Made by a program: the position numbers and the translations under genes
Source: Gyromitra esculenta
Lineage: Eukaryota > Ascomycota > Pezizomycetes > Pezizales > Discinaceae
Direction: 5' to 3'
NCBI GenBank assembly: GCA_038503075.1
Contig: JBCAML010000023.1
Coordinates: 248,001-312,000 of the forward strand
DNA: 64,000 nucleotides
Part shown: positions 12,956-52,864 of the stretch, piece by piece
How positions within the stretch are numbered: the stretch's first letter is position 1
Layout: each line of letters starts with the position of its first letter
The notes under the pieces: model-generated
Database searches by the model: none
Told to the model about the DNA's origin: nothing
What the model saw: only the letters and a program-made list of their open reading frames with translations

Positions 12956-13799
12956 TTTCACGGATGAAGAAGGATAAGGGGTTAGTCTCACGGTTGTGTT
13001 CCTCGTTAAGCCCTTCAGTATCCCTGAAGGTGAGCAGTGCTACTTAAGCGAGGTAACAACACGTTCAAAGAGAGCAGTGTTTTCTACAAGTTCTACGAGG
13101 GGTCTATCTCAAGGCGAGATAAGTGCAGCGGAGTGGACAGCGACAGCGAGGGTTCTGAGATAGAACCGAGGTAGTATTCCGACAAATACAGAAGAAGGTA
13201 AACGAGAACGTTGCTTAAGGAAAGAAGAAGAAAGAGTACAAAGACGACAAAAATCCTTCACTTAAATACCCCGCTTTCCCGTAACACAAGCCAACAACCT
13301 GACAACAACCAAAATGTAACCGAACAACAAAGCTATTATAATCAAAGGAAATTCTCCATAAACACCAATCCCTTCGTCCTAACCCATTACCCGGTTCCAT
13401 CCGTGAAAGTTAGGTTCAAAGTAATGTTTACGGGTTATGGGTTCTCTTTTGTTTAAACAAAGTCTTTGTTCTTCGGTTACGTTCGGTTATAAGTTTTGGA
13501 TAGGAAAAGCGGGGTATATAAGGAGGATGGTTTCATTGTTTTGTAGTTCTCTTCTTTTCCTTCTCTAAGCAACGTTCTCACTTTACTTCTACTGTATTGT
13601 TTTAATACTATCTCGATTCTACTTCAGAATCCTCGCGGTCGCTGTCACTGCAAACATCCTCATACTTAACTCGCCTGGAGTTAGACCCTCGTAGGACCTG
13701 TAGAAAACTCCGTCATTCTTATCGCAACGATTCTCGTTTAAGTAGCTCTGCTCACCTTCTGGGATACAGAAGGGCTTAGACGGGAACCGCTCCGTGAGA
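12956..13799 (+). mobile_element. Solo LTR inserted in the MULE zinc knuckle, itself interrupted
   Basis: LTR pieces 12956-12985 and 13409-13799 begin TTTCACGGATG and end CCGTGAGA; both outer flanks carry CTACC (12951-12955, 13800-13804). A reverse-oriented LTR fills 12986-13408. The second piece holds the TATA (GGGTATATAAGG), the AAGCAACGTTCTC start region and a hairpin CCTTCTG-GGATA-CAGAAGG. Confidence 0.9.
12986..13408 (-). mobile_element. Solo LTR nested in LTR 12956-13799
   Basis: 423 bp, TCTCACGG to CCGTGAAA on the plus strand, with GTTAG duplicated at 12981-12985 and 13409-13413. It contains the reversed AAGCAACGT block and the GGATA-loop hairpin. Confidence 0.92.
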
Positions 13800-15477
13800 C
13801 TACCACACCGCTGTTTGCCCTCCAAAGTCTCCTCCCCATTCATTTTTCGAGCATAATTTAGTGCAGCTAACCCTCTATCTCCTTTTTGGGCACGCTTTTT
13901 TTTCGGTCTTCCTGGCATTCTTCGCGCAACAGGAGGATAGCACAAACCATCAGAGTCCAAATCATCAACAGTAATCGGTCTCCAGTTTTGAAGATAAATA
14001 TTTTTCCAAGTTGCAATTGACAATGCAGGAGGAAAATAATTTAATGGTACCTCTCCCGGAAGAGCCAAAATAGTTGCATAGGCGTGTGAACACGGGATTT
14101 CATTTTCCTGAAAATGTGTACAGGTGCAGGTACGGTTTTGAACTATTACAAAATTGTTAGCTTTGAAAATAAATAGTAAATTATGTTGGAAGCTTACGGT
14201 TCATGACATGTGTTTTCGCGTTTTCTGAACCATTATCACTCAAAATATGTTGAATGACGCGTGCATGTGTATAGCTAGCTTGTTCCACTGAATGGCTTTG
14301 CGCCCAAATTCTACTGGTTTCGGCCTCAATATTACACAGCTTAGTAAATGGAAACCGGTATTGGGGGTTGCTGGCTTCTTCAAGTCGTGTAAATCGTAGC
14401 TTCATTTGCGAGTGCCAGATCTCATTTAAAAGATCCACCACTGGTAGCTCGCGTATATTCGATAAGGAACTGTTTAATGACTCGACAATATTTGAGGTAT
14501 TGTGCCCATAACGACGTCCTTCAAAAAAGGCAGTAACCCACAAATTTTTATCAATCGCTGATAAATAATCTGCTGCTGTAGGTTTTTGTGATCGTAAATC
14601 TGTCAAAAACTCTTGATACTGTTGCTCTGTCTTCGCATTTGCAATTTTCCAAAAGTATGAGTCGGTTAACCGCACAGCAAAGCGTGTTTAAAAGTTTTCT
14701 CGTAAATGAAAACAACAGTAAGCACGATAAATACCAGGGCCTAAGATTTCTTCTGCAGAAATTAAGCCTTTGTCTCGGTCGCTAATAACCGTAGCTCTTG
14801 TAACTGCTGGAATCGCATTCTTCAAATGCGTCATAAAATATGACCATGACTCTTTATTTTCGCCTTCAACTACAGCCCAAGCAAGCAACAATATATGGCC
14901 ATTTGCATCAATTGTAACAGCCAGCAACAAAGTCTGAATATGTCTCGCTTTGCAAAATGTCCCATCAACTGCAATAAACTTCCGGCAATAATCAAAAGAT
15001 GTTTGAGCTTCTCTGGGGCATATAAACACCCGTTTAAAGTGGTTTTGAGGTTCGTTATTGTTTCCGGAGTGTATAGTTGTTTCGAGATTTGTATAAACAT
15101 TCGGGTTGTTGGCATGTAAGCGAGTGAGGTAGGAAGGAATTTGCTGGTATTGTAGTTGCTCGTAACCCAAAACATCGTTAGTTAAGGAGGAAAGTGCTTT
15201 TAAAGCAGCTTGATAACTAACGATCTCGCTGTAATGCATTTGTATGGTTCCGATGATTTCACGTGGGGTGGTTTGCTTTGTAACAGCAATATGTTTTGGA
15301 ATGTGCTTGCAAAGCCATGTATGACTGTTGCACACTTTGCTACGTGTTCCTGGATTACTGAGAGCCGCTCCTAAACAAGTGTGCTCACAAACCAATTTGG
15401 ATATTTTTATATCGCCATGAGTTGTACGAGTAGCAAAGACTCTCCAATTGCAAAGAGTCAAGTGTGATCTATCATGG

Positions 15478-15897
15478 TCTCAAGGGGCGAGGTTTTCCTT
15501 CAAGCTCTCAGGTATCCCCCGAGGTGAGCAGTGCTACTTGAATGGAAAACTAAGCGACAAGAGTGTTCACGAAGTTCCACAGGCTCTACGAGGTGTTCAA
15601 GTGTAGAAGACTTGATAGCAGCAACAGCGTAAAGTTATGAAGTATAACCGAGGTTTGTATTGTGAAATACAAGAGTGTACAATAGAAGACGTTGCTTAAG
15701 GAGAAGAGAAGGAAAAGTACAACAGGAGGGCCTTCCTCTCGCTTATATACCCAAGATCCGACCTTTCGATGACACATGTCTGACTCATTGTAAATAAAAA
15801 CCAAAAGAAGAAAAGAGATAATCGCACAGCCACGCACTCATACACCCGAATAGAACAGTGAAACAACCATACTCCAACGCAACAACCATCCATGAAA
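15478..15897 (-). repeat. 3' LTR of element A
   Basis: 420 bp, plus-strand ends TCTCAAGG and CCATGAAA. In sense orientation it holds TATATAAG, then TTAAGCAACGTCTTC, and a U5 hairpin whose outer stem GTTTTCC..TTCAAG / CTTGAAGGAAAAC is almost perfect. Confidence 0.92.
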
Positions 15898-15909
15898 GTA
15901 CTCCCTCCC

Positions 15910-18900
15910 TCATAGCCGTGAGCTCCTGCGAACACTAACTAGACCTTCCTTTGGCTTATCTGGATAACGTTGGTGAAAGGCATCTACTGCCTCTGTCTCC
16001 TCATGATACTCCGCAAGTTCCCAGGTGGGCAAAGCATACGCTGTCCATTCAACCAAGTATTGGAGTTTTCCTCGGTGGAGGCGAGAGTTTAATATACTTT
16101 CAATGAGGTATTCTTCGACGTCATTTACTTGGATGGGGGGAGGTGGTGGGATGATTTGACCGGGGATTGGGTCATTGGGAGCTGCTTTGAGTAACGAAAC
16201 GTGAAATACTGGATGGTATTTCATTGACGTCGGTAAGTTTACTTCATAGGCATGCGCAGAAATCACTCGTTTCACAGGAAAGGGGCCACTCCATTTCCAG
16301 TCCAGTTTTCTTGAGTTTCGGGTCGTCCTCATATTCCTCATTGACACGAAAACTTGATCGTCGACTTTAAACGAAGGGGCGGGGGTACGGTGCCGGTTGG
16401 TACTAGTTTCGAAAATATCCTGGGCCGTTCTCATCTGAGTTCGAAGGAAGTCTCTAAGTTCTTCCATCTTTGAAGCGAAGAGGTTGGCATCGAGGGTTTG
16501 TGGGGATCGATCACTAGGGATAATCGCAGTATCGAAACGGGGGTGATAGCCGTAATTGGCGAAGAAGGGTGTGGCCTTGGTACTGGCTGACTCTTGGTTA
16601 TTGGCAGCAAACTCGGCCATTGGTAACCATTTTGCCCAGTCGTCTTGTTGATACGAGACATAACAACGAAGGTATTGTTCCATAACGGCATTGAGACGTT
16701 CAGTTTGACCATCTGTTTCCGGATGAAAGGACGTCGACATGCGAGCAGAAATATTTAAACGTTGGCAAAGATAATCCCAGAACTTAGCAGTGAATTGCGT
16801 TCCTCTATCAGATGTGATGAAGGAAGGTAGTCCGTGGAGTTTCCAGACGTTTTGGAGATAAAGTTCTGCTGTTTGTTCGGCGTTAACGGTGGTATTACAG
16901 GGGATTAAGTGTCGCATCTTCGATAATCTATCTACCACGACCATTATTGCATCAAAGCCGTTGGAATCTGGGAGGCCCGTAACAAAGTCCATCGATAATT
17001 CTTCCCAAGGGCGATTTGGGATTGGGAGGGGTTTGAGAACGCCGTGAGTACCAAGGGTATTAGGTTTTGCTCGTCGGCAGGTATGACAGTTTCGGGTATA
17101 TCGTCCGATATACTCTCTCATTTTTGGCCAATAAAAATATCTGGAGATGAGTTCGAAGGATTTTTCACGTCCTGGGTGACCTGCAGAGGGGGCATCATGG
17201 TATCGTTTAAGGATAGACAGGCAAAGGGGATCGTGATCGGGGACGTAGAACTTTTGGTGGTAAAGAAGATAGCCATTCGTTTCCGTACAGTCACCGAGGG
17301 ATATTTCCTTGGACTGTTGTTCGCCATTCCTGAGTGCTAGGAGGATTTTTTGTGGGAATGGGTCAGCGATATATCCGTCATTCATCAATGTTTTAAGGGG
17401 AGCATCCAATTCAGCGGGTTCATTTGATAAAGAACCCGAAAACAAACTTAGCTTGGGGTCCAAGTTTCTTTCCTTCAAGACTACTTGATGTTGGTATTGT
17501 AGTCTTTCATCTCCTTCTTCAGGGAGATCTCCCGATCTCCGAGTTAGAGCATCCGGCTTTCCTCCCTGTGTTCCTGGTCTGTATGTAATGACAAAGTTGA
17601 AACGTGAAAGGTACTCTGCCCATCTGACCTGTCTTCGATTTAATTGCTTGGTGGTCATAAAATGTTCCAAGTTTTTATGGTCTGTAATGACGGAGATGGG
17701 GAGTTCAGATCCTTCAAGTTCAGGGCGCCATTCTTCAAAACACCGGATAATGGCTAGTAGCTCCTTATCATAGATCTCATAGTTACATTCAGCAGGTGAA
17801 TGTTTCTTAGAGAAAAATGCCACAGGGTGAAGTACGCCGTTGTCATCGAGTTGGGAGAGGATACCGCCGGAGACGAAGTCAGAAGCATCGGATTCTACAA
17901 AGATCTTTTTTTGGGGGTTAAAGTGGATAAGCACCGGGGCTTTAGTAAAAGCATCTTTAAGGGCTTCGAATGCAAGCTCTGCTTTAACGGTCCATTCGAA
18001 GATAGTGCCTTTTTTTGTGAAGGCGGTGAGAGGCGCGGCGAGGCGAGAGAATCCTAGGATGAACCTTCGGTAGAAGTTTGCGAAGCCTAGGAATGCTTGG
18101 ACATCTTTAATGCATTTGGGTCGGTTCCAGTCTCGCACTGCTTTGAGTTTGTCTTCGTCCATTTTAATTCCTTCAGGGGTGAGGATTAGGCCAAGGTATT
18201 TTATTGACTGGACGTGGAATTCGCATTTTTCGGGTTTGAGAAGGATGTTATTCCTTTTTAGAGCGTCAAGAACTTGTTTGACATGCACTTTATGCTCTGC
18301 AAGGGTATCGCTATAGATAAGTATATCGTCAAGGTAAGCGGTACAAAAAAGGTCCAAGAATTCTCGAAGGGAATCATTCACAAATCATTGGAACGTGCCG
18401 GGGGCGTTGGTAAGGCCGAATGGCATTACCATGTACTCATATAAACCATATCGAGTCCGAAAAGCTGTTTTCCATTCTTCTCCCTCAGCTATGCGGATTT
18501 GATGAAAGCCGTCACGGAGATCTAGTTTTGAATACCATTGGGCTTTTGCAAGCCGGTCTAGTGTTTCTTTAACTAGGGGAGAAGTATAGCGATCTTTTAC
18601 TGTGAGGGCATTAAGACCACGGTAGTCGACACATAGACGAAGGGATCCATCGGGTTTGGCAGCGAAGAGGACTGGTGAGCCGGCAGAGGAAGAGCTGGCG
18701 CGAATGAAACCTTTCTCCAGATTATCTTCGATATATTTTTTCAGGACCAATAATTCGTCGCGGGACATGCCGTAGAGGGGTCCAAACGGTGGTTCTTTGC
18801 CTTCTTGTAGGACGATTTTATGGTCATAGGGTCGGCGAGGGGGAAGTCCCTGGGCTTTAGCCTTATCAAACATGTCGAGGTATTTGTGGTATTCAGCGGG

Positions 18901-19539: not shown

Positions 19540-19551
19540 AGGAGAAAAATG

Positions 19552-19596
19552 AACCAGAGCAGGGTCACAGGGCGACTCTGGTTGAACTAGTTTAAA
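19552..19596 (-). promoter_or_regulatory. Gag-pol -1 ribosomal frameshift signal, element A
   Basis: T TTA AAC (19596-19590, minus strand) sits in the gag frame directly before the gag TAG stop. Six bases later an eight-pair stem AACCAGAG / CTCTGGTT begins, with a loop of about 16. Pol lies in the -1 frame relative to gag, as coordinates confirm. U UUA AAC is a canonical slippery heptamer. Confidence 0.85.
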
Positions 19597-21254
19597 GACT
19601 CGACTGAGTCTGCTGCGTGGAAGGCGGGAAAACGTGGTGGTAACGGTGGTGGAAAGACAGAAGGAGCAGGAGGGGCAGCGGCGGCGTTAGTAACAGCCCC
19701 TCTCATAGCGGGGCGTTTGGAGGCAGAGGGACAGTTTGCAAAGATATGTCCTTCCCCGGCGCAAAACAGACAATGGTTATTCGTTTGTCTCCACGATTTT
19801 TCTTCAGGAGATAACTTTCTTCTCCCATTAACCTGAACGTATCGTTGATCAGGGGCAGGGCGCGAGACAGAGGTGCGGCCGAAGGAAAGATCCATAGGAA
19901 CAAGTCCTCCAGGGACGAAGGAGGAAGAGGCAGGGGTAATGGCAGCGGGGGCGGCAGCAGGGGCAGCGAATTGTCCCATGGTATTGCGGGCCGCGTTTTT
20001 CTTCTCCTCTCTTCTTGCTCGGATACGGTTATCTAAACGGAGGAGAAAGGCGCAGAGGGAGGTAAAGGTGGTAGGGAAGTCGGCAACGGTTACTACCGCC
20101 TCCTTCAGTTCGTCTGACATGCCAAATTCTAAAGCGTCGTTTTTTGCGGATTCGTCGTAGTTTAGGCGTCCCATGATGCGCTGGAAGTTGGCAAGGTCTC
20201 ACGGTTTCGTCTCTCGTTAAGCGCTTCAGTATCACGAAGGTGAGCAGTGCTTCTTAGCGAGATACTAACACGTTCGAGGAGTGCAAAGTTTTCTACAAGT
20301 TCTACGAAGGGTCTATCTCCAGGCGAGATAAGTGTAGTGAAGTGGACAGCGACAGCGAGGGTTCTGAGTAGAACCGAGATAGTATTTTGAGGTATATAGC
20401 AGAAGTATAACGAGAACGTTGCTTAAGAAAAGAAAAGGAGAAGACAAAGAATGATCGAAAATCCATCGCTTAAATACCCCGCTTCCACAAACAAAAACCC
20501 AATAGCCGATAACACCCGAAAATACAATAGCATTACAACACAATAACCCTCACAGCCTATATCCATCCCTGAACCGAAACCTAACCCTTATCCAATCCTT
20601 AATCCGTGAAACGAGGTAAGCAGAGAAATCTCTCTTTCCTTGTCGGAGTTGATGTAGCTCGCGGCGGGCAGTACCGAGGGGGTCAGGGTCGCCGAAAGCT
20701 GTTTCCAGGGCGGTGATTAGATCGGCAGCGGAGTTCCAGGTAGTGGTCCCATCAGGGAGGACTGAGTGGCGGATTTGTTCGAGGGCGGCTCCCTCGAGGC
20801 GGCTGATAGCATACAATATCATGTTATTGTTGCTGGAGAATCGGTCGGCGTTAACCGAGAGTTTGGAGCGCAGTTGTAGAATAAAGCCCGGGAGTTTGTC
20901 GCGAGACCCATTGAATTTATCTGGGTCGGGCATTTTGTCCGAGCGGCCGCCTTGATTGGGGGCTGGTGGTGGTGGAGGGGACGGCGCAGGAGGTGGGGGG
21001 GCGGTGTTGCGGAGGCGGACGATTTCTGCTTCTGCGGCTTGCAATTGGGACTGGCAAGTGTTGAACCTTGCCGTCATGTTGTTTCTTTCCTGTACAGCTT
21101 CTTCTAGCTGTAGGTCTGCGTATGTGAGGTTATCGACCCGTTGTTGATAGTGGGATCGAATCTCCTCGTAGGCAGAGGCGAGATCGGCATTGGCAGCGGC
21201 CTGGAAGTTCTCGAAAGTTGGGAAGGTCCAGGGGGCAGGGGCGGGGTTGCTCAT
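19587..21254 (-). pseudogene. Gag of element A, split by a solo LTR
   Basis: Starts MSNPAPAPWTFPTF at 21254, a start also conserved in element B. A coiled-coil-like segment and Pro-rich linker come first, then a capsid-like region (MPDPDKFNGSRDKLPGF, HQLRQGKRDFSAY), and a CCHC knuckle (CLFCAGEGHIFANC) near the end at 19.75 kb. The LTR at 20197-20611 cuts it after FSAYL. It ends ESLN-stop at 19589-19587, at the frameshift site. Confidence 0.9.
20197..20611 (-). mobile_element. Solo LTR nested in gag of element A
   Basis: 415 bp, TCTCACGG to CCGTGAAA, flanked by CAAGG (20192-20196) and CGAGG (20612-20616), a target duplication with one transition. Element B shows the uninterrupted sequence at the same point. 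Confidence 0.9.
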
Positions 21255-21323
21255 AGCGGCGTTGAGGTTTTTGTGGTGGTGTAAAGAAGCGGGGTAGAGG
21301 GTGTGGATGAGGAAGCAACGTAA

Positions 21324-21744
21324 TCTCAAGGGGCGAGGTTTTATCTTCAAGCTCTCAGGTATCCCCCGAGATGAGCAGTGCTACTTGAAGGGAAAACTAA
21401 GCGACGAGAGTGTTTACGGGATTCCACAGGCTCTACGGAGTGTTCAAGTATAGAGGACTTGAGGACGGCGACAGCGTAAGGTTATGAGGTATAACCGAGG
21501 TTTGTATTGTGAAATACAAGAGTGTACTATAGAAGACGTTGCTTAAAGAGAAAAGAAGGAAAAGTACAACAGGAGGGAATTCCTCTCGCTTATATACCCA
21601 AGATCCGACCTTTCGATGACACATGTCTGACTCATTGTAAAAGGAAACCAAAAGAAGAAAAGAGATAACCACACAGCCATGCAACCATGCACCTGAATAG
21701 AGCAATGAAACATCCATAACCCAACGCGACAACCATCCATGAAA
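21324..21744 (-). repeat. 5' LTR of element A
   Basis: 421 bp partner of 15478-15897. Sense-strand promoter TATATAAG, presumed transcript start AAGCAACGT, and U5 hairpin at 21338-21397. The primer-binding site is at 21323-21311. Confidence 0.92.
21338..21397 (-). ncRNA. U5 structured RNA element, element A
   Basis: Minus-strand RNA folds as an outer stem GTTTTCCCTTCAAG / CTTGAAG..AAAAC, a constant one-sided bulge TAGCACTGCTCA, and an inner stem CTCGGG / CCTGAG (one G-U pair) capped by GGATA. The same layout with different stem sequences recurs in the other LTRs. Confidence 0.75.
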
Positions 21745-21955
21745 CATGGTCGAGATTCGGTGGTAGATGTGGTTGAGGAGTTTGTCTGGGTCTTTTCTTA
21801 CTTGTAAAGCATTGATAATCGGCTCGATTGGTGTCTTTTATTGGTGTCCAAAACTGGAATTTATCGGTAATACTCCAGTCTTGTATTTTGGAACGGATCT
21901 CGTCAAAAGTTGAAAAAATTTCACCAATACAGAAAACTGGACTTGGAGGAGCCAT

Positions 21956-22298: not shown

Positions 22299-22717
22299 TT
22301 TCATGGATAAAATCGGATAATGGGTTAGGACGATTGTGGGTAGTTACAAAGGATTTTCGTTGAGTATAATGGCTTTGTTGTTCGGTTATGTTTCGGTTGT
22401 TGTCAGATGGTTGTTTGTGTTACGAGAAAGCGGGGTATTTAAACGGAGGATTTTGGTCATTTTTGTTCTCTCTTTCTTTCTTCCTTAAGCAACGTTCTCA
22501 GTTTACTTCTGTTGTATTAGTTTAATACTATCTCGATTCTATCTCAGAATCCTTGCAGTCGCTGTCGCTGTGAAAACCCCCTCACTGAACTCGCCTTGAG
22601 TTCGACCCTGTAGGACCTGTAGAAACATCGTATACCTTATCGCTTGACCTTTTCGTTTAAGTAGCTCTGCTCACCTTCAGGGATACTGAAGGGCTTAAAC
22701 GAGGTCATACCGTGAGA
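22299..22717 (+). mobile_element. Solo LTR
   Basis: 419 bp, TTTCATGG to CCGTGAGA, GTATT duplicated at 22294-22298 and 22718-22722. It has a TATTTAAACGG TATA region, AAGCAACGTTCTC, the GGATA hairpin, and a perfect outer pair CGTTTAAG / CTTAAACG. Confidence 0.93.
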
Positions 22718-22774
22718 GTATTCCTCAATCTGGAAGGTAAATCCGCTGAAACCTTTAAATTCTTTGTTGTCCAG

Positions 22775-23934: not shown

Positions 23935-24348
23935 TTTCACGGATATAAAGGAGTAATCGGGTCAAGGATATTGTTGGGGTTGCGGCTTTCGGTTTAGGAT
24001 TATAATGTCATTGTGTTTCGGTTGTCTTCGGTTATTTCTTAGTTATGAGTCATAGGGGTCGAAAAGCGGGGTATTTAAGAGATGGATCTTTGTCGCTTGT
24101 GTTCTTTCTTTCTTCCTTAAGCAACGTTCTCGTTTACCTTCTTCTGTATTTGTCGGAATATTATCTCGGTTCTACCTCAGAACCCTCGCTGTCGCTGTCC
24201 ACTTCGCTGCACTTATCTCACCTCGAGATAAACCCTTCGTAGAACTTGTAGAAACGCTGCACTCCTCGAACGAGTTAGTTCCTCGCTTAAGTAGCACTGC
24301 TCACCTTCAGGGATACTGAAGGGCTTAACGAGGGACTGAACCGTGAGA
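23935..24348 (+). repeat. 5' LTR of element C
   Basis: 414 bp, TTTCACGG to CCGTGAGA. TATTTAAG is at 24072-24079, the presumed mRNA start AAGCAACGT at 24119-24127, and the U5 hairpin at 24274-24341. Confidence 0.93.
24274..24341 (+). ncRNA. U5 structured RNA element, element C
   Basis: Outer stem GTTAGTTCCTCG.TTAAG with CTTAACGAGGGACTGAAC, constant bulge TAGCACTGCTCA, inner stem CCTTCAG / CTGAAGG and GGATA loop. It lies immediately 5' of the LTR end and primer-binding site. Confidence 0.75.
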
Positions 24349-24422
24349 TTACGTTGCTTCCATCATCTACACCTTCTACCCCTCGATCCAAGTAACGAAC
24401 ATTCCCTCCGTCCAAACTCATC

Positions 24423-25867: not shown

Positions 25868-26276
25868 TCTCAAGGAGTGGGTTTCTTGTCAAGCTCTCAA
25901 GTATCCCTTGAGATGAGCAGTGCTACTTGAGTAGGAAACCAACAGCGAGAGTGTATACGGAGATTCTACAGGCTCTACGAGGCGGTCAAGTTATGATGAC
26001 TTGAGAACAGCGACAGCGGCGGGTTACGAGGTGTAACCGAGGATTGTATTGTGAAATACACGAGTAAACAATAGAAGACGTTGCTTAAAGAAAGAAGAAG
26101 GAAAAGTACAAGATGAGGGGAAACCCCTTCGCTTATATACCACGTTCCAACTCTTTCGATGACAAAGACATGACTCATTGTAACGAGAAACTCATGGAAA
26201 CACAAAGAACAACAACGAAACCTGACAACCGTGTACCCATGTACCTAGCCGATCAACATAACAACTATCCATGAAA
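25868..26276 (-). repeat. 3' LTR of element B
   Basis: 409 bp, plus-strand ends TCTCAAGG and CCATGAAA. It carries TATATAAG, AAGCAACGTCTTC and the hairpin CTCAAG-GGATA-CTTGAG in sense orientation. Confidence 0.92.
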
Positions 26277-31211: not shown

Positions 31212-31271
31212 GATGACTCTTGGTTGGGGGGGGGGAGCGGGGTAGAGGGTGTAGATTAGGAAGCAACGTAA

Positions 31272-31680
31272 TCTCAAGGAGTGGGTTTCTTGTCAAGCTC
31301 TCAAGTATCCCTTGAGATGAGCAGTGCTACTTGAGTAGGAAACCAACAGCGAGAGTGTATACGGAGATTCTACAGGCTCTACGAGGCGGTCAAGTTATGA
31401 TGACTTGAGGACAGCGACAGCGATGAGTTACGAGGTGTAACTGAGGATTGTATTGTAGAATACACGAGTAAACAATAGAAGACGTTGCTTAAGGAAAGAA
31501 GAAGGAAAAGTACAAGATGAGGGGAAATCCCTTCGCTTATATACCATATTCCAACTCTTTCGATGACAAAGACATGACTCATTGTAACGAGAAACTCATG
31601 GAAACACAAAGAACAACAACGAAACCTGACCACCGTGTACCCATATATCCAGCCGATCAACATAACAACCATCCATGAAA
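31272..31680 (-). repeat. 5' LTR of element B
   Basis: 409-bp partner of 25868-26276. The sense-strand U5 hairpin is at 31344-31284. Confidence 0.92.
31284..31344 (-). ncRNA. U5 structured RNA element, element B
   Basis: Outer stem GGTTTC..CTCAAG with CTTGA..GAAACC, bulge TAGCACTGCTCA, inner stem CTCAAG / CTTGAG, loop GGATA. The inner stem differs from A, C and D at paired positions. Confidence 0.72.
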
Positions 31681-37039: not shown

Positions 37040-37862
37040 TTTCATGGATAGGAACGAATAATGGGTCTAGGATAGTGTGTGGGTTGTAAGGATTTCGGCT
37101 AAGGGTATAATGTCTTTGTTCATTGGTTATCTTTTGGTTATTGTTCCCTATTTGTTAAAAGCAGGGTATTTAAGTGATGGATTTTGGTCGCTTTGTAACC
37201 TCTTCTTCTTCTTTCCTTAAGCAACATTCTCATTTCACTTCTACCTGTATTATTCAATACTACTTCGGTTCTATCTCAGAACCCTCGCTGTTGCTGTCCT
37301 CGCCGCTTTTCATCGATGGATGCTGTGTTGGTTAGTTAGGTACATGGGTACATGGTTGCTAAGCGTTGTTGTTGTCCCCTATGTTTCTTTTGGTTTTTAT
37401 TTACAATGAGTCATACGTTTGTCATCAAAGGGTTGGAATATGGGTATATAAGCGAAGGGTTTTCCTCTCTTGTTTTACTTTTTCTTCTCTTCTCTTTAAG
37501 CAATGTTTTCTATAGTACACTCTTTGTATTTCGCAATACAAACCTCAGTTACATCTCATAACCTTCATCGCCGCCACTTTTGAGTCATCATAACTCGTAA
37601 AACACGTAGAGCCTGTGGAAACTCCGCTTAAACGCTTGTTGTTAGTTTCTCTTACAAGTAGCACAGCTCATCTCTGAGGATATCAGAGAGCTTGATGAGA
37701 TTCTCGCCCCTTGAGACCACTGCACTTAACTCGCCTTGAGTTAGACCCCATCGTAGAACCTGTAGAAACCTTGCACTCCTCGAACGTGTTGTTTCCTCTC
37801 TTGAGTAGCACTGTACATCTTCAGGGATACCAAAGAGCTCAAAAGGAGACACAGCCGTGAGA
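37040..37862 (+). mobile_element. Middle solo LTR of the nest
   Basis: Pieces 37040-37307 and 37717-37862 run from TTTCATGG to CCGTGAGA; CTCAT is duplicated at 37035-37039 and 37863-37867. It carries TATTTAAG and AAGCAACATTCTC. It is split by the innermost LTR. Confidence 0.9.
37308..37716 (+). mobile_element. Innermost solo LTR of the nest
   Basis: 409 bp, TTTCATCGATGG to CCTTGAGA, flanked by CCGCT (37303-37307) and CCACT (37717-37721). It has TATATAAG and the hairpin CTCTGA-GGATA-TCAGAG, another compensated stem. Confidence 0.9.
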
Positions 37863-38189
37863 CTCATGTTGTACTTTTTCTTCTCTTCTCTTTAAGCAAC
37901 GTCTTCTATTGCCACTCTCCTGGTATCCTACAATACAAGCCTGGATTCCAGTAGTCCATCCACATAACCACAATTTGCATAGCATCAAAATCACGTCACT
38001 ACACCAATTTAGTATCGCTATCAGAGCCTTCTTTATTCCTCATAGCCTTAGAGCTTGTGGAATCATCGCACAAATCTTTTTTCTCGTTTTTGTTCAGGTT
38101 GCACTGCTCACCTTTAGAGATACCAAAGTGTTTGATGAAACCTCATTCCTTGAGAGTGAGGGTGCCAGGACTTTTATTATACGGCTGTA

Positions 38190-38841: not shown

Positions 38842-39252
38842 TCTCACGGTTCAGCCCTTCGTTAAGCCCTTCAGTATCCCTGAAGGTGAGCAGTGCTACT
38901 TAAGTGAAGTTCTAACATGTTCGAAGAGTGCGATGTTTCTACAAGTCCTACAAGGGGTCTAACTCAAGGCGAGTTAAGTGCAGCGTGATAAAGACAGCGA
39001 CAGTGTGGATTCTGAGGTAGAATCAAGGTAGTATTTAGAACAATACAGTAGAAGTAAAACGAGAACGTTGTTTAAGGAAAGAAGAAGAAGTTACAAATCG
39101 ATCAAAACCCTATCCCTTAAATACCCCGCTTTTGACATATGGAAAACCAATAACCGAACGGCAACAGAACAACAAAGACATTATGTTCCCTAACTAAAAC
39201 CGTTACAACCAACACAATAGCCTTGATTCATTACCTGTTTTCATCCATGAAA
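38842..39252 (-). mobile_element. Solo LTR without matching flanks
   Basis: 411 bp, TCTCACGG to CCATGAAA, with GCCGT on the left and GTCTT on the right. The missing duplication suggests decay or recombination between two different insertions. Confidence 0.85.
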
Positions 39253-39446: not shown

Positions 39447-39894
39447 TTTCATGGATTGACTTAGAGTATGAATCGTGGTTTGACTAGCGATTGTATCGTT
39501 GCTTGGATGGTTGTATAATTCCTTTGTTGTTCGAGTATGTTTAGGGTTGTCGGAATAATGTCTTTGTGTTTCGGTTGTTGTCGGATTGTTGCTGGTGTTA
39601 CCAAAAGCGGGGTATTTAAGGAAGGATGATTTTGGTCGCTCGTGTTTTGCTTTCTCTTCTTTCCTTAAGAACGTTCTCGTTACCTTCTCCTGTCATTGCT
39701 ATAATACTACTTCGGTTCTACCTCAGAACCTCGCTGCCGCTGTCCAACTCGCTGCACCTATCTCGCCTGGAGATAAAACCCCTTTTAGAACTTGTAGAAA
39801 CACCGCACTCCTCGAACGTGTTAGAACCTCGCTTAAGTAGCACTGCTCACCTTCAGGGATACTGAAGGGCTTAACGAGGGACTGAACCGTGAGA
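39447..39894 (+). repeat. 5' LTR of element D
   Basis: 448 bp, TTTCATGG to CCGTGAGA. TATTTAAGG promoter; the start region reads CCTTAAGAACGTTC, having lost GC from AAGCAACG that the 3' LTR keeps. U5 hairpin at 39826-39879. Confidence 0.92.
39826..39879 (+). ncRNA. U5 structured RNA element, element D
   Basis: CCTCG.CTTAAG / CTTAACGAGG outer stem, TAGCACTGCTCA bulge, CCTTCAG-GGATA-CTGAAGG inner hairpin. Confidence 0.72.
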
Positions 39895-39967
39895 TTACGT
39901 TGCTTCCATCATCTACACCTTCTACCACCCAATCCACACAAAGACACCCACCCCCATCGACTCCAAC

Positions 39968-44300: not shown

Positions 44301-44934
44301 CCCCGTTTCGATACTACGTTTGTTCCAATCAAAGCTAGCCCTCAAAGTCTGGATGCAGCCTCTTTTAGCCAAACCATGCAGGAACTCCATGACTACCTAC
44401 AAACGCAGATGAGAACCGCCAAGATATTCAGGAAAACGCTACGAATAAACACCGTATGCCCGCCTAATTATCAAGTCAACGATCGGTCTTCGTGTCAATG
44501 AAGAACATCAGAACTACACGGAACGCTAGGAAACTGGACTGGAAATGGATGGGACCTTATCCGATCAAGAAAATAGTTTCCCCTTTGCCTATGAAGTTGA
44601 CCTTCCGTCCTCGGTTAAGTACCACCCTGTCTTCCACGTTTCTTTATTGAAACCTGCGGCCCATGACGCTCTCCCAGGACAAATCATTCCTCCACCGGCG
44701 CCCGTTATTGTCAACGACCAAGAGGAATATTACATCGAGAAAATCTTGGACCAACGAACTTATCGCAAGAAACAACAATACCTCGTTGAATGGACCGGTT
44801 ATGCTCATCCTACCTGGGAACCCGCTGAAGACCTTGTAGATACCTCGGCACTAAAAGAGTTCTTAACTGTCCCGACCTTGGTTACTCCTAGTATTCGCAG
44901 GAGCTCACGTCAGGAGCCTACTTTCATGGATTGA
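41265..44934 (+). pseudogene. Pol of element D
   Basis: Protease ([16 protein letters not shown]) in the -1 frame of gag, ended by TAA at 41612-41614, the same position as in element C. RT ([21 protein letters not shown]) is open from 41687 to a TGA at about 42798, with two codons lost just before (QAFLANFYRRF). RNase H, integrase and chromodomain (EYYIEKILDQRTYRKKQQYL) follow in pieces with several frameshifts (43440, 43600, 44200, 44470). Confidence 0.9.
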
Positions 44935-45362
44935 CTTGTAGCATTTAATCGTGGTTTGACTAGCGATTGTATCGTTGCTTGGATGGTTGTATAATTCCTT
45001 TGTTGTTCGAGTATGTTTAGGGTTGTCGGAATAATGTCTTTGTGTTTCGGTTGTTGTCGGATTGTTGCTGGTGTTACCAAAAAGCGGGTATTTAAGGATT
45101 TTGGTCGCTCGTGTTTTGCTTTCTCTTCTTTCCTTAAGCAACGTTCTCGTTACCTTCTCCTGTCATTGCTATAATACTACTTCGGTTCTACCTCAGAACC
45201 CTCGCTGCCGCTGTCCAACTCGCTGCACTTATCTCGCCTGGAGATAGACCCATTGTAGAACTTGTAAACATCGCACTCCTCGAACGTGTTAGAACCTCGC
45301 TTAAGTAGCACTGCTCACCTTCAGGGATACTGAAGGGCTTAACGAGGGACTGAACCGTGAGA
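44922..45362 (+). repeat. 3' LTR of element D
   Basis: 441 bp partner of 39447-39894, with small deletions between the two and an intact TTAAGCAACGTTCTC. Confidence 0.92.
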
Positions 45363-45367
45363 CTTTG

Positions 45368-45981: not shown

Positions 45982-46157
45982 TCTCATGGTCCAGTCCTGG
46001 TCAAGCCCTTTCTCAAGGGGCGAGGTTTTTCGTCAAGCTCTCAGGTATCCCCCAAGGTGAGCAGTGCTACTTGAACGGAAAACTTAGCGGCGAGAGTGTA
46101 TACGGAGATTCCACAGGCTCTACGAATTGTTCAAGTAAAGAAGACTTGAAGACGGCG

Positions 46158-46999
46158 TCTCAAGCAGCGAGATTCTTGTCAAGCTCTCTGGTATCCCCAG
46201 AGATGAACAGTGCTACTTGATTGAGAAACTAACAGCGAGAGTATATGCAATGATTCCACAAGCTCTATTTATGGTTCAAGTTATGATGACTTGAAGGCGG
46301 TGTGGTGGGGCGTGGGTTGCAGGCTTGAGGTTGCAGGCGTGGTAGGAGATGATGTCACGTGACTTATCACATGACCTGGGTTAGGGTATGGAGGTGGTAG
46401 TGGTGGGGGGGGATCGTGTGTATCTTTTGGCGGGGTTGCAGCTTTTTGTACATCACTCATCACTATTCTTTTACTATACTATAGACTATTCTCTACTCTA
46501 TATACGGGGTCTATTCTTGGGTGTGCCATTCAGGGCTCTCGCCCCCTCCCCGCCACAAAGCATACCTTAGACTTCGCTCGCAGGCGTCACTCTCAGAGCC
46601 ATTGGTGATAAGGTACCTAGGAAAGGCCTATCTAGTGGAAGTCCGCGTCGACGGGCCCTCCTACCATAAAGGGAATACGATGTCAGATCTCAAGGTTACT
46701 GCTAGGGCGTCCCTGCCGCCCGCCCACAGCGGCGACGGCGGAAGGCTAAGAGGTGTAACCGAGGTTTGTATTGTAAAATACACGAGAAACAATAGAATAC
46801 GTTGCTTAAAGAGAAGAGAAGGAAAAGTACAACAAGAGGGGAAGACCGTTCGCTTATATACTCATGTTCCGTCCCTTCAATGACAAACGCATGACTCATT
46901 GTAAATAGAAACCAAGAGAAACATAATGGGTAACCAACAAAAATAAACCAACCGAACACCCATACAACCAACCCGACAACAGAACAACCATCCATGAAA
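46158..46999 (-). mobile_element. Third-level LTR of the nest
   Basis: Pieces 46158-46300 and 46731-46999; CGGCG duplicated at 46153-46157 and 47000-47004. It is interrupted by an unrelated insert at 46301-46730. Confidence 0.9.
46301..46730. mobile_element. 430-bp MITE-like insert in the third-level LTR
   Basis: Compared with intact LTRs, 430 extra bases start TGTGGTGGGGCG and end CGCCCGCCCACA, imperfect 12-base inverted ends (10 matches). GCGG lies on both sides and may be the target duplication. No coding frame is convincing. Unlike the other MITEs here it is not TA-flanked. Confidence 0.6.
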
Positions 47000-47456
47000 C
47001 GGCGACAGTGAAAGGTCACAAGGTGTAACCAAGATTTGTATTGTGAAATACAAGAGTAGACTATAGAAGACGTTGCTTAAAGAAAGAAGAAGAAAAAGTA
47101 CAACAAGAGGGGAAAACCCTTCGCTTATATACCCATATTCCATCTCTTCGATGACAAATGCATGACTCATTATAGTGGAAACCAAAGGAAACATAACGAA
47201 CAAGGAACAAAACAAGGCAACCAAACAACCACACATCCTGTCCGACAACGCAACACCTTATCCATGAAACCCTTCTGTATCCTAGAAGGTGAGCAGAGCT
47301 ACTTAAGCGAAGTACTGTTGCAATAAGAATGACGATGTTTCTACAGGTTCTACGTGGGATCCAACTCATGGTGAGTTACGTGCAATACTGAGACAGCGAC
47401 AGTGAGGATTCTAAGGTAGAATTGAAGTAGTATTTAGATAATACAGGTAGAAGTAA

Positions 47457-48774
47457 TGTTATACCTATTGGTAGCTTAGTTGGTTACGACTTGAGTTCGC
47501 TTACGATGCACACATATGGACTAGCGTTCAATCCCCGACCTTGTCGATTATTATTAATCTTGGTTGATTATTAATAAGATTCGGATTGGATGTTTGGTTT
47601 CCTTGTGTCATCAATGGCCAACTCTTTCGATCGACACTTCCCCGATTCGCTTATACGTTGCGTCGCCGGTTAATTCAGACAATCACGCCATACGATAATG
47701 AGAGGGGTAGGAGCGAAGGAAAGCGTTTCAGGGTCTATGAGATTTTTCCATGTTAGTTCATGTTATTACATAGCCTTTGTATTTGACGCTTGACTACTAT
47801 AAGTAGTCCAGTGTTCTACTGTTGAGAAGGGTCTTCTTCCTGATCATTAGCGACGAAGAACGAGCCTTATCAATATTATATTGTATAGCTTAGCGGTATA
47901 CGACATTCATTCATACTCTCAAGGTCCTGTGTTCGTTTCATCTTCAAGTAATACTTTCTTCATGCAAAGAATCCTTTATTTCTTCAAGAGACTTTGTTGT
48001 TGCTTCACGCGACACGAACCTCAAAGTCAAGCGCGCGTCCACAACAAACCTCGTCCTTAGACGAAGAGTATATTCGAATGAACACGATACCAAACAAGCA
48101 AAGCAAGTGATATTCAAACTACACCCAGGCCAAGGACCCTTCAGAGTTAGTTATCAAAACCTTACTATTGGAAGTTCTTCACCAAACTTTCTTCAATCAC
48201 TACTTTGAACCCTACTTTCACGGTCTTGACTCTCGTTAAGTCCTTCAGTATCCCTGAAGGTGAGCAGTGCTACTTAAGCGAGAGATCAAGCGACAGAGGT
48301 CACAATGTTTCTACAGGTCCTACATGGGTCTAACTCAAGGCGAGTTAAGTGTAAAGGTTTTCACAGCGACAGCGACCGTGAGGATTTTGAGGTAGAATCG
48401 AGGTAGTATTAAAACAATACAGTAGAAGTAAAGTAAGAACGTTGCTTAAGGAAAGAGAAAGAAGATGATACAAGCGAACAAAACCCATCCTTTAAATACC
48501 CCGCTTTCCAACTCCAATAACTCATAACCGACAACAACCGAAACACAAAAACATTATAACCCGAACCAAAATCCTACCACAACTGGCACAATATTCCTGA
48601 CCCATTACCCATCCTTATTCATGAAACCTACCGTTATCTTTTAGCGGTTCATAAGAAGCAGTTAGGACTTGCACCTGTGTATTGTGTTGCGGATAGCAAC
48701 AAGGCGGGTTATAGCGTCTAGATTGTTATCTAAAGGCACGGAGATTTCATGCGGTAGAAATCTTTAGTCTTACA
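47457..48774 (+). repeat. Repeat with tRNA-like head, copy 1 (SINE-like), split by a solo LTR
   Basis: It starts TGTTATACCTATTGGTAGCT. A box A match (TAGCTTAGTTGG, 47472-47483) and a box B match (GTTCAATCCC, 47526-47535) are spaced as in a tRNA gene. A second tRNA-like pair lies at 47886-47896 (TAGCTTAGCGG) and 47930-47940 (TGTTCGTTTCA), absent from copy 2. The body matches copy 2 (51729-52864) closely at both ends; the end region holds a hairpin (GATTTC...GAAATC). There is no open frame. SINE is the best guess; the length of about 900 bp without the LTR is long for one. Confidence 0.6.
48216..48626 (-). mobile_element. Solo LTR inside tRNA-headed repeat copy 1
   Basis: 411 bp, TTTCACGG to TCATGAAA on the plus strand, CCTAC duplicated at 48211-48215 and 48627-48631. 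The outer U5 stem CTTGA..CTCTCG / CGAGAGTCAAG differs from other copies yet pairs. Confidence 0.92.
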
Positions 48775-49336
48775 GAACGCATAATAGTACCGGACAAGCT
48801 AAAAGGTAGTAAGGATCGCGTGAGTCTTTGTCATTCTTATGTGCTAGAGAATACCTCTTCTGCTGCTGTTTCAATGGAGTGGAACCAGCGAGAATAACGT
48901 TAGCGGAAGAGTCGATGATATATCTCGGGTGATCACAATACAGGAAGGCTCACTGTGGTGGCGTTCCCAATCTATCTGCATGCGCTAGCAGCCCAGAGCC
49001 ATTGGCGTGGCAATAGAGAATCTATTAAGTACAGGACACCTCACATGCAGCAATAGACTGATCAGCGCCGATTCTTGCATCGCATGGCATGGCATGCAGG
49101 TGGCGGATCTAGAAGGTCTAAGCTGGACACAACAGGGAGGAGAACGGTGAAGTGATTATTAGCTGTATCCTGAGGTGCTCCGCCAGCAATAGCATGGCAT
49201 GTTCTCAAGGTCTTGACAAGCCCCCAGCAGAGTAGAACAGAAAGAGGACGGTGAGTCAACAGTACTATAAAGATAGTGCATGACCCCGCCACCTGTTGCT
49301 CTTCTTCTCAGTTCTCATCAGGCAGAATACTACCGA
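48775..49336. other. Unassigned sequence
   Basis: No gene, repeat or RNA gene recognised. Confidence 0.3.
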
Positions 49337-49341
49337 GTAGA

Positions 49342-49749
49342 TCTCAAGGAGAGGGAATCTCGTCAAGCTCTCTGGTATCCCCAGAGATGAGCAGTGCTAC
49401 TGGAAAGAGAAACTAACACCACGAGTTATACATGAAGATTCCACAAGCTCTACTTGTTTGCGAGTTATGATGACTTGAGGGCGGCAACAACGAATGGTTA
49501 CGAGATGTAACCGAGGTCTGTATGGTGAAATACAAAGAGTGTACTATAGAAGACGTTGCTTAAAGAAAGAAGAAGGAAAAGTATAACAAGAGGGGAAAGC
49601 CCTTCGTTTATATATCCATATTCCGATCCTTGAATGATACACGCATGACTCGTTGTAATGGAAACCAAAGGAAGCATAAGGCATAACGACAAAACAGAAC
49701 AATCCGAAAACTCTTCCACTAACCGAACCACACGACATCCATCCATGAA
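49342..49749 (-). mobile_element. Solo LTR
   Basis: 408 bp, TCTCAAGG to CCATGAAA, GTAGA duplicated at 49337-49341 and 49750-49754. Inner hairpin CTCTGG-GGATA-CCAGAG in sense orientation. Confidence 0.93.
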
Positions 49750-49936
49750 AGTAGAGCCCTTAAGATTATTAAGTTCATTGCACGAAAATACTCTTAACAT
49801 CTCAACCTGATTTCTAGTATTTGCAACGGCAGTATTCCTATACTTATTCCCACTTAGCAGTTGGACTACCCTGTTACATTTATTTCCTGACCAATCGTTG
49901 TTTACGCTTGAGCTAATAACGTCAAGGTCATGAAGA

Positions 49937-50366
49937 TTGGGTAAAACAATGGATGAATAAACTTTGTGATCTAGATTGGCATAAAGTAGACACCTATCTC
50001 TTCAAACCAACTGGACCATCTACTTACAAATTTCCTTTAGATGCTCAAAATATTACTCTTTGTCTTGAGTACTTGAGAGGTTAGAGCAGTCAACCGGACC
50101 ACAGAGTAAAATATGGGAGTAGCAATGATAATACTAAGTTTTACCAGAATAAAAAGTCTGATATTGAGGAATTCATGAGGGACAAAATTAAGAAGCAAAA
50201 TGGACGTATCATTTTTTCAGGTAGGACTTGAGTATGACACAAAAACAGGGACTCTGCTGATGGTTTATCGCAATGTTTGCAAGCTTGTGGGTGGGATGCC
50301 AAGAAAGAATATTTGATTCGAAGAGCTACATTTTTACTCCTAAAGGATAATGGAGTACATAAGTAA
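49937..50366 (+). pseudogene. Decayed coding remnant of unknown family
   Basis: One frame reads WVKQWMNKLCDLDWHKVDTY, FPLDAQNITLCLEYLRG, a stop, DIEEFMRDKIKKQNGRIIFS, two stops, then GLSQCLQACGWDAKKEYLIR. The phrasing looks like protein rather than chance, but there are at least four stops and no recognised domain. It might be a transposase or replication-type fragment. Confidence 0.4.
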
Positions 50367-51728
50367 ATACTGAAACTTAGTTATCCCCAAAACTAGAGGC
50401 ATGCTTGGTGTGAGTAGTTGTTATGAAACAATAAAATAAACCTATGTGCCTACTATATATTACAGAACTCAAGACATAAATAAACCTCTGCTTAATACTC
50501 CCCAAAAAAATACTGCTGGTCATTCAAGTACAATCGTGAAGTCTAAACTTATAGTAACAGTAGCTGTAGTTCCTAGTAGGTCCAGCCTGGTGAATGATCC
50601 CTAGATGTGGCTTGCACTAGAAATTAACCTGTTCTATCCCTAATTTATTATACAAGATCTTAGCAGTATGAGAGAAATAGATAGCTGCTAGCTCTGGAGC
50701 ATGTCGATCATTTACTGATTAGTCAAAAATATCTAGTCAACTGTATAAGCGTATAGCTTTCTTGGCCCATTAGCTAAACCAAAATTTATTCTTTCCCACT
50801 CCTACAGAAGTTTAAGACTTACAGAAGTTGTAAGTAGGTAACCAACATATTTAAATAAGGAATTCTTAAATCCATCTAGCTGCTAGAAAGTTGGCGACAG
50901 GCTATAAAACCTGCACTCACTGTCAGTATCTAGCACCAAAAAGACAAACCATTGGTTATCACCAGTGCGCGGAACAAAATACAAAAGCCATGATACCAAA
51001 TTCTGTCTCCGAAAACCGGAACGCGAGAAATAAGTTTGGAAGGTGAAGAGATACTCTCATGAAAAAGGCTATTGAGCTCGGCAAGTTCTGCAACACAAAA
51101 ATTTTCTTGGTTATTGAGAGAGAGATGGCCGCTATTACACTTTTCGATCTATGGTGTATTGACTCTAGAACCTACACGTGAAACCGAATACGATCGGCAC
51201 GCTAACAACCCAAAGCGGAAACACAATCTAAATAGTCACTCAACGTTAAAGTTATTAACATTGTTCTAGAGAGATAATTCCATGTATTAGCTTAGTTACA
51301 TATAGGGCTGTGAAATTGGAGAATTTGGCAGGCTGTAATTGATTGTGGTTTTGGTGAGGCAAGCTGCATGTTTTTTCATACTAGCCCTATGTATATTTGA
51401 GCACCTGTTTCACTCTCACCAAAAATGACATTTTATCGCTTCTATTTCTTGCCATCAACATCACTTTTGAGAGAAATAAAATCTAGGTGAGATAGTCTTA
51501 GAGACAGCATGCGTGGGTTTTTTGTGTTAATTTCTATCAGTGAATTTAGTTATTCGAACAGGGTAGCGGCTTTCTGGGTGTAGGTTTTAGAGTCAATCCA
51601 CCATACTCGGGACAAATTTTTGCCCCCAACAGTAAAAGAAATTGTAAGACACTACCGCTCTGCATACTTGTGTCATGGTTACTAATCAACCTCAGCAAAG
51701 GGGTTGTCCTTTGCCTGAGAGCTCCCAG
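50367..51728. other. AT-rich stretch without recognised features
   Basis: No gene or repeat supported in 1.36 kb; short open frames look random. Confidence 0.35.
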
Positions 51729-52864
51729 TGTTATACCTATTGGTAGCTTAGTTGGTTACGACTTGAGTTCGCTTACTATGCATACATATGGACTAGCGTT
51801 CAATCCCCGACCTTGTCGATTATTATTAATCTTGGTTGATTATTAATAAGATTCGGATTGGATGTTTGGTTTCCTTGTGTCATCAATGGCCAACTCTTTC
51901 GATCGACACTTCCCCGCTTCGCTTATACGTTGCTTCGCGGTTAATTCGCATAATCACGCATACGATAATGAGAGGGTAGGAGCGAAGGAAAGCGTTTCAG
52001 GGTCTATGAGATTTTTCCATGTTAGTTCATGTTATTCCATAGCCTTTGTATTCGACCCTTGACTACTATAAGTAGTCCAGGTGTTCACTGTTGAAGAATT
52101 CTTACGATCATTAGCGACGAAGAACGAGCCTTATCAATATTATATTGTTTTTAGCAAAATTACTTCCGTGCAATTTACTCTTTTACTTGTGAATTACTTT
52201 TATCTCGCTTAGCAAGGCCTTGGCCCTTCAGCGTTCGTTATCAAAACCTTACTATTGGAAGTTCTTCACGGAACTTTGCTCAATCCCTACTTTGAACCCT
52301 AAGGTTATCTTTTAGCGGTTCATAAAAAGCAGTTAGGACTTGCGCCTGTGTATTGTGTTGCGGATAGCAACAAGGCAGGTTATAGCGTCTATTTCATGGA
52401 TGAAAAGGAATAGATGGGTCAGGGATGTTGTACGGGTGAAGTTAAGGGTTTCGGTTAAATAATATAATGTCTTTGTGTTTCGGTTGCTATCGGCTATGAG
52501 TCATAATGGTTGGAAAGCGGGGTATTTAAAGAGAGGGATTCTGTTCGCTTGTTACTTCTTTTCTTTCCTTAAGCAACGTTCTTACTTTACTTCTACTGTA
52601 TTGTTTTAATACTACCTCGATTCTATCTCAGAATCCTCGCAGTCGCTGTCGCTGTGAAAACCTTTACACTTAACTCGCCTTGAGTTAGACCCCCGTAGGA
52701 CCTGTAGAAACATCGTATACCTTGACGCTTGACCTTTCGTTTAAGTAGCTCTGCACACCTTCAGGGATACTGAAGGGCTTAATCAAGGTCAAACCGTGAG
52801 AGTCTAGATTGTTATCTAAAGCTTCTTGAAGATTTACCGTGCGGTAAGAAGTACCGGTCTTACA
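51729..52864 (+). repeat. Repeat with tRNA-like head, copy 2, split by a solo LTR
   Basis: Same start as copy 1, including the box A and box B matches (about 51744 and 51798), but lacks about 200 bp that carry the second tRNA-like pair in copy 1. Its end has a perfect inverted repeat TTACCGTGCGGTAA. The LTR 52392-52801 interrupts it at a different place from copy 1. Confidence 0.6.
52392..52801 (+). mobile_element. Solo LTR inside tRNA-headed repeat copy 2
   Basis: 410 bp, TTTCATGG to CCGTGAGA, GTCTA duplicated at 52387-52391 and 52802-52806. The outer U5 stem TTGACCTT / AAGGTCAA is a further compensated variant. Confidence 0.93.

Follow-up and report, generated by a model that had tools for sequence, protein, structure and literature searches.

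The question raised by a 64,000-nucleotide stretch of the Gyromitra esculenta genome (contig JBCAML010000023.1, positions 248,001 to 312,000; hereafter the window, meaning the whole stretch of DNA that was analysed) is why the long terminal repeats (LTRs) of its retrotransposons end in a hairpin whose stems change from copy to copy around a bulge and a GGATA loop that seldom do. A sequence-only reading had taken the paired stem changes for the mark of a selected RNA structure located in U5 immediately ahead of the primer-binding site (PBS), and had proposed reverse-transcription priming, packaging or Gag binding as its role. We find that the hairpin is a real, selected RNA structure, and consider it highly probable that it is the U5-inverted-repeat-like (U5-IR-like) duplex of a self-priming signal of the Tf1/sushi type, in a fungal chromodomain Ty3/gypsy family.

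A covarying hairpin at the end of the LTR

The window holds 21 hairpins; the one with its bulge at 47290-47301 is truncated on the 3' side, and those with bulges at 37806 and 38099 are decayed. The 12-base bulge alone, allowing up to two mismatches, occurs 25 times in the window against 4.4 expected, a number reached by none of 100 shuffles. Counted over the whole genome (47.1 Mb in 23 contigs), the motif TAGCNCTGCTCA-N7-GGATA occurs 1775 times (858 + 917) and the reversed control pattern not once. Our hairpin sample, drawn from the window and 88 fetched loci (all on contigs C1-C4), covers about one tenth of that count: it gave 190 motif matches, 170 of them distinct, and after removal of a chance match in coding sequence, a fold-back copy and a truncated copy, 167 distinct copies. 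The pattern used for collecting them included the bulge and the loop, never the stems. A second sample of 60 five-prime LTRs was fetched via the PBS alone and is free of that bias.

The inner stems quoted in the sequence-only reading were recovered at or next to the places given for them: CCTTCAG/CTGAAGG, CCTTCTG/CAGAAGG (bulge 13743-13754), CTCAAG/CTTGAG (bulges 25914 and 31318), CTCTGG/CCAGAG (LTR 49342-49750), CTCTGA/TCAGAG (LTR 37308-37716) and, with a G-U pair, CTCGGG/CCTGAG (bulges 15525 and 21372). The quoted outer stems were likewise found in the LTRs at 22299, 52392 and 15478. The loop and bulge, described there as invariant, are nearly but not strictly so. Among the 60 PBS-fetched LTRs the loop is exact in 54, and the bulge is exact in 36, has one mismatch in 19 and is worse or absent in 5; in the 167 copies collected through bulge and loop the corresponding exact counts are 124 for the bulge and 158 for GGATA, and 12 copies carry the T variant TAGCTCTGCTCA. 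The one-sided bulge is present as claimed, yet 13 of 14 sampled minimum-free-energy (MFE) structures predict within it a 3-bp mini-hairpin, AGC/GCT, the exception being the fold-back L085. Such a mini-hairpin would turn the hairpin into a three-way junction; its helix is without covariation support because it hardly varies. In L085 (~205) a long inverted copy of the hairpin's own 5' side stands in place of the 3' arm, a fold-back that perhaps arose by template switching during copying.

To assess covariation we used an ungapped alignment of 80 columns, anchored on the bulge and the loop, which contained 132 distinct cores from 164 copies; 3 of the 167 copies, with an indel in the inner hairpin, were excluded. 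In our own R-scape-style test, the G-statistic with average-product correction was compared with 200 null alignments made by relocating every branch's substitutions to other columns. With a tree built from the rest of the LTR, 4 of the 17 proposed pairs had a two-set E<0.05, three of them at E<=0.001 and one at 0.03. With a hairpin-derived tree, three pairs had E<0.01 and the fourth stood at 0.09. The three top-scoring among all column pairs were hairpin pairs. Significance is lacking for the other 13 pairs, either through low variation or, in the distal stem, probably through register shifts caused by indels. Where both partners of a pair changed on the same branch, pairing was kept in 35 of 35 cases (null mean 4.0, maximum 9) and, on the most conservative tree, in 18 of 18 (null maximum 6); with the partners slid by one to three columns, 0 or 1 pairing-keeping double changes were counted.

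Measures of pairing itself gave the same picture. Over 12 core pairs in the 132 distinct cores, 1551 of 1584 cells pair, compared with a mean of 1365 and a maximum of 1390 in 500 shuffles. The distal outer arms of 52 representatives bind their own partner at -12.6 kcal/mol and swapped partners at -9.4 kcal/mol, a difference reached by 0 of 5000 permutations. Thus the paired changes that had been read as a selected RNA structure in U5 are backed by the covariation tests and by the place of the hairpin in a larger conserved fold, described below; covariation beyond phylogenetic expectation was found in this approximation of the proposed test on a sample of copies.

A predicted self-primer and a third duplex around the PBS

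The repeated elements are, as judged from sequence, chromodomain Ty3/gypsy retrotransposons. Open reading frames (ORFs) in the window have Pfam matches to gag (DUF4939, Retrotrans_gag), protease, reverse transcriptase (RT), RNase H, integrase, SH3_Tf2-1 and chromodomain, and the order protease-RT-RNase H-integrase, with the chromodomain at the integrase end, is that of a Ty3/gypsy chromovirus. The two chromodomain matches score 33.1 bits, above the Pfam cut-off of 25.1, and 21.5 bits, below it. For RT-RNase H the two best solved structures were 4ol8 and 7q5b (Ty3-G Gag-Pol chain), and six gag relatives were found.

The LTRs have non-canonical ends, TTTCATGGA...TGAGA in place of TG...CA, with a 5-bp target duplication; the pair at 25868-26276 and 31272-31680, for example, has CCAGC on both outer sides. 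Identical 5-bp flanks stand at these borders in 23 of the 59 solo or 3' LTRs with both ends found (28 further LTRs were without a recognised start), compared with a mean of 0.46 and a maximum of 3 for shuffled partners and 0 for shifted borders. The LTR, ending in GAGA, is followed by two bases and then by the PBS, ACGTTGCTT. Matching flanks at the TGAGA border place the end of the LTR at GA, so that the two bases before the PBS would be lost on integration.

The nine bases of the PBS are the exact complement of a 9-mer in R, AAGCAACGT, found mostly 160-179 bases upstream of the bulge. Among the 55 copies with an exact TATATAAG box, it stands 51-53 nt after the start of that box in 54 and 46 nt after it in the remaining one (110 further copies gave no distance). 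Of 94 copies with a PBS-like site, a set to which PBS-based fetching contributed many, 79 have both 9-mers exact; in the 60 copies fetched via the PBS alone, the R 9-mer was found 50 times without a mismatch and 7 times with one, and was not found in 3. No TGG of the tRNA type follows the LTR in any of the 89 PBS contexts extracted from the 94 copies, and 88 of these contexts start with TTACGTTGCTT. Based on these sequences, the elements very probably prime from the 5' end of their own RNA, as Tf1 does, and borrow no tRNA. The LTR at 39447-39894, despite its PBS and duplex 3, has no self-primer 9-mer with up to two mismatches 130-260 nt before the bulge; this copy is perhaps decayed or rearranged. 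In one leader, L035, the stretch after the PBS is unlike that of other copies and includes a part that looked tRNA-like by eye, in which ARAGORN (bacterial setting) recognised no tRNA.

On the other side of the PBS, a 14-base word of U5, GTAGRRCYTGTRGA, pairs with TCYACACCYYCTAC, 5-6 bases downstream of the PBS, in 85 of 87 leaders. Of the 14 positions of this duplex 3, 12 are paired in at least 80 of the 85 leaders, and at three columns an A-T pair in some leaders is a G-C pair in others, with both strands changed (65/20, 56/27 and 66/17). Pairing survives all six double changes on a single branch (null maximum 3); duplex 3 pairs take the first three places among the column-pair scores, and one of these scores was reached by no null. 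The middle two positions are each paired in 1 of 85 leaders and mostly present C opposite C or U, a 2x2 pyrimidine mismatch. Since one strand lies inside the LTR and the other outside it, the two meet only in a full-length element or its RNA, never in a solo LTR.

Two more hairpins were noticed in R/U5, with conserved loops ACCTC and GCCTT (as in window 24119-24292) and stems that seem to change in step: GGTTCT/AGAACC, GATTCT/AGAATC and GGTTAT/ATAACC around the first, TATCTC/GAGATA, TAACTC/GAGTTA and ATACTTC/GAAGTAT around the second. Perfect short inverted repeats occur in 83 of 87 leaders in one of the two stretches searched and in 80 of 87 in the other; the first count includes, besides the ACCTC type, a neighbouring TTGTATT/AATACAA stem. 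The self-primer, the third duplex and these two hairpins are additions to the earlier description of the locus.

We folded 86 distinct leaders, selected for an exact PBS and an R 9-mer with at most one mismatch. In the MFE structures, 85 of 86 leaders form at least seven of the nine primer:PBS pairs (median of the mean primer:PBS pair probability, 0.94); given the selection, this figure means that no other pairing competes, and says nothing of how frequent the complement is. At least five of seven inner-stem pairs are predicted in 85 of 86 leaders, and in 80 of 86 at least 10 bases of the 30-nt outer arm are paired across. The LTR-terminal GAGA pairs near the self-primer in 61 folds and with the hairpin base in 18, and is elsewhere or unpaired in 7. 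In the four folds whose structures were inspected, the two extra bases form a bulge or a small internal loop at the predicted cut. The three duplexes of the Tf1 pretzel are thus present as complementary sequence and as predicted structure, and because of its position we read the hairpin as the duplex on the U5 side.

These elements point to the following sequence of events. The RNA would start with AAGCAACGT, about 45 nt past the end of the TATA box where a box is recognisable, and its 5' bases would fold back and anneal to the PBS 2 nt after the 5' LTR. The U5 hairpin would then lie directly upstream of the primer:PBS duplex, with duplex 3 clamping the other side, 5-6 nt downstream of the PBS. 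A cut by the element's RNase H behind base nine would release the primer, and RT would extend the freed 3' end, so starting minus-strand synthesis into U5. The bulge and the GGATA loop may serve as contacts for RT, Gag or RNA packing.

Self-priming weighed against other roles of the hairpin

Like our hairpin, the retroviral U5-IR is a U5 stem-loop immediately before the PBS; retroviruses use a tRNA as primer, whereas the RNA here very probably primes itself. Priming of Tf1 is said, by the title of a 1998 paper by Lin and Levin, to need a structure like the retroviral U5-IR. For Tf1, self-priming and the three-duplex pretzel have been published (PMC10085805, PMC7175516), with a primer of 11 bases and an RNase H cut between bases 11 and 12 (PMC7175516). 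The same source describes Tf1/Tf2, Tj1, Tosmo1-3 and Tcry1 of fission yeasts as chromodomain Ty3/gypsy elements in which, as in ours, the 5' bases of the RNA complement a PBS just after the 5' LTR, and Tcn1 of Cryptococcus neoformans as a fungal chromovirus proposed to self-prime in the manner of Tf1. For SM-Tcn1 of the spikemoss, its authors report evidence of neither tRNA priming nor self-priming (PMC2864245). Unlike the fission-yeast elements, the family described here has 9 rather than 11 primer:PBS pairs, an LTR that ends in GA rather than CA with two extra bases before the PBS, and a duplex 3 that keeps a 2x2 pyrimidine mismatch in the middle of the helix. The extended stem of its U5 duplex, with the conserved bulge and the GGATA loop, may be a further difference.

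Several observations weigh against this assignment or limit its support. The LTR ends, TT...GA, differ from the CA end reported for the fission-yeast elements; the primer and PBS 9-mers hardly vary, which leaves their pairing without covariation support, and 2 of 87 leaders have no recognisable duplex 3. When all column pairs were tested, only one hairpin pair had E<0.05 on each tree, and only one duplex 3 pair did, the other two top pairs having E-values of 0.55 and 0.62. Three pairs outside the structure outrank the fourth 'significant' hairpin pair, which comes seventh, and in the ungapped alignment the five distal outer-stem columns contain no significant pair. For the distal arms, a swap with the nearest relative gave about -11.6 kcal/mol against -12.6 kcal/mol for the own partner, an advantage of only about 1, and the own arm was at least as good as both swaps in just 24 of 52. 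Finally, owing to small indels in the outer arms, RNAalifold predicted just 11 pairs of the hairpin from a 125-column MAFFT alignment of LTR ends; the ungapped alignment anchored on bulge and loop and the alignment-free arm swapping were used in its place. A split into two subfamilies by the U5 tail misplaced rows (nine TCTCGGG copies fell into group I), and no claim is based on it.

Of the roles proposed earlier, priming is much favoured because the adjacent PBS complements the element's own R and does not resemble a site for a tRNA 3' end; packaging and Gag binding are neither supported nor excluded. That the hairpin is chiefly a signal for packaging, dimerisation or Gag binding, its proximity to the PBS being incidental or both ends being served, is the most serious alternative, although an unlikely one. 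An unpaired bulge and loop conserved amid changing stems are the trace expected of a protein-binding or kissing site, and AGCA/TGCT in the bulge is nearly self-complementary; but a signal for packaging alone would not need three duplexes arranged round one primer:PBS helix. A kissing or dimer role of AGCA/TGCT is thought less likely because the T variant breaks this self-complementarity and leaves AGC/GCT.

A function at the DNA level, or as an LTR site for integrase or a host protein, is very improbable. The hairpin does extend near the LTR terminus, where integrase acts, and the tree count examined for a sense-strand preference gave 20 changes from Watson-Crick pairs to G-U and 18 to A-C, and therefore no preference. 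However, dead copies that undergo repeat-induced or spontaneous C-to-T change should decay equally to G-U and A-C, the G-U pair at one inner-stem position in 31 of the 132 distinct cores is a C-A mismatch on the other strand, and duplex 3 links the LTR with a leader outside it through compensating changes.

U5-IR stem-loops are known in tRNA-primed retroviruses, and those of Rous sarcoma virus are reportedly the subject of a paper. A classical retroviral U5-IR beside a tRNA primer nevertheless seems most unlikely here, in view of the PBS contexts without TGG and of the 9-base self-complement in R at a nearly constant place. Least credible is that the covariation merely reflects the shared descent of two or three subfamilies: although a large share of the signal lies between subfamilies and 13 of the 17 pairs lack significance, changes also occur within subfamilies (CCTTCAG, CCTTCTG, CCTTTAG and CCTTCGG; TCTCGGG, TCTCGAG, TCTCTGG and TCTCAAG), and tree-aware nulls were exceeded on three trees by the covariation score and on both trees tried by the double changes.

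If the hairpin is the U5 duplex of a Tf1-type self-priming signal, the bulge and the GGATA loop are the parts that pairing leaves unexplained, and contact with a protein may account for them. Tentatively, and with less confidence than in the assignment itself, we suggest that the tip (AGC/GCT mini-hairpin, CA joint, covarying inner stem and GGATA loop) forms, together with the pyrimidine mismatch of duplex 3, a recognition module undescribed for self-priming elements, which RT or Gag might read so that only correctly folded full-length RNA has its self-primer cut. The tip may be the sole part that is new in kind, the rest being known self-priming of the Tf1 type. A literature search in which most subscription journals lay outside the range returned no paper joining self-priming, covariation and retrotransposon, and among the matches listed for Pezizomycetes, LTR and self-priming no title names this element family.

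In the sources cited above, the pretzel appears to have been approached so far through work with Tf1 and inspection of the predicted folds of a few relatives. The approximately 1775 natural copies of the motif in one genome add another kind of evidence, since two of the three duplexes show compensating changes of independent origin; they also map which unpaired letters seldom change. LTR copies in a single fungal genome thus offer enough natural variation to solve a leader structure comparatively, and make directly testable what RT recognises in a self-priming RNA.

Features of the window

Table 1. LTRs, hairpins and predicted priming elements in the window (window coordinates).
Feature	Position	Strand	Remarks
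5' LTR, element A	21324..21744	-	bounds TTTCATGGA...TGAGA; bulge 21372-21383; PBS follows
Predicted self-primer, element A (9 nt, R)	21536..21544	-	exact complement of PBS 21313-21321
TATATAAG, element A	21589-21596	-	self-primer ~45 nt after its end
U5 strand of duplex 3, element A	21423..21436	-	12/14 positions pair with 21294-21307
U5-IR-like hairpin, element A	21324..21413	-	outer stem, bulge, inner stem, GGATA loop
PBS, element A	21313..21321	-	2 nt after LTR end
Leader strand of duplex 3, element A	21294..21307	-	
5' LTR (pair 25868-26276 + 31272-31680)	31272..31680	-	bulge 31318-31329; TATA 31536-31543
3' LTR of the same pair	25868..26276	-	hairpin bulge 25914-25925
Predicted self-primer, element of LTR 31272-31680	31482..31490	-	exact complement of PBS 31261-31269
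U5 strand of duplex 3, element of LTR 31272-31680	31369..31382	-	pairs with 31242-31255
PBS, element of LTR 31272-31680	31261..31269	-	
Leader strand of duplex 3, element of LTR 31272-31680	31242..31255	-	
5' LTR	23935..24348	+	hairpin bulge 24292-24303
Predicted self-primer, LTR 23935-24348	24119..24127	+	exact complement of PBS 24351-24359
U5 strand of duplex 3, LTR 23935-24348	24239..24252	+	pairs with 24366-24379
PBS after LTR 23935-24348	24351..24359	+	
Leader strand of duplex 3, LTR 23935-24348	24366..24379	+	
5' LTR	39447..39894	+	bulge 39838-39849; PBS 39897-39905; duplex 3 strands 39785-39798 + 39912-39925
LTR with hairpin	44922..45362	+	bulge 45306-45317
LTR with hairpin	15478..15897	-	bulge 15525-15536
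LTR with hairpin	12986..13408	-	bulge 13031-13042
Hairpin region	13713..13799	+	bulge 13743-13754
LTR with hairpin	20197..20611	-	bulge 20241-20252; inner hairpin out of usual register (indel)
LTR with hairpin	22299..22717	+	bulge 22662-22673
LTR with hairpin	37308..37716	+	bulge 37659-37670
Decayed hairpin region	37776..37862	+	bulge 37806-37817
Decayed hairpin region	38069..38155	+	bulge 38099-38110
LTR with hairpin	38842..39252	-	bulge 38887-38898
Hairpin, bulge to LTR end	46011..46069	-	
Hairpin, bulge to LTR end	46158..46215	-	
Bulge of hairpin truncated on 3' side	47290..47301	-	
LTR with hairpin	48216..48626	-	bulge 48261-48272
LTR with hairpin	49342..49750	-	bulge 49388-49399
LTR with hairpin	52392..52801	+	bulge 52746-52757

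The Rfam look-up that had been suggested earlier gave no match in the window at the gathering score (4227 models), and three loci containing 5' LTRs were likewise without a match at E up to 1. ARAGORN (bacterial setting) returned no tRNA gene in the window. A fragment of a MULE-type (Mutator-like element) transposase at 14688-15461 on the minus strand directly adjoins the LTR at 15478. That the host is probably a pezizomycete fungus agrees with a host gene for a major facilitator superfamily (MFS) transporter, the nearest proteins to which come from Morchella and Tuber, with 45-47% identity.

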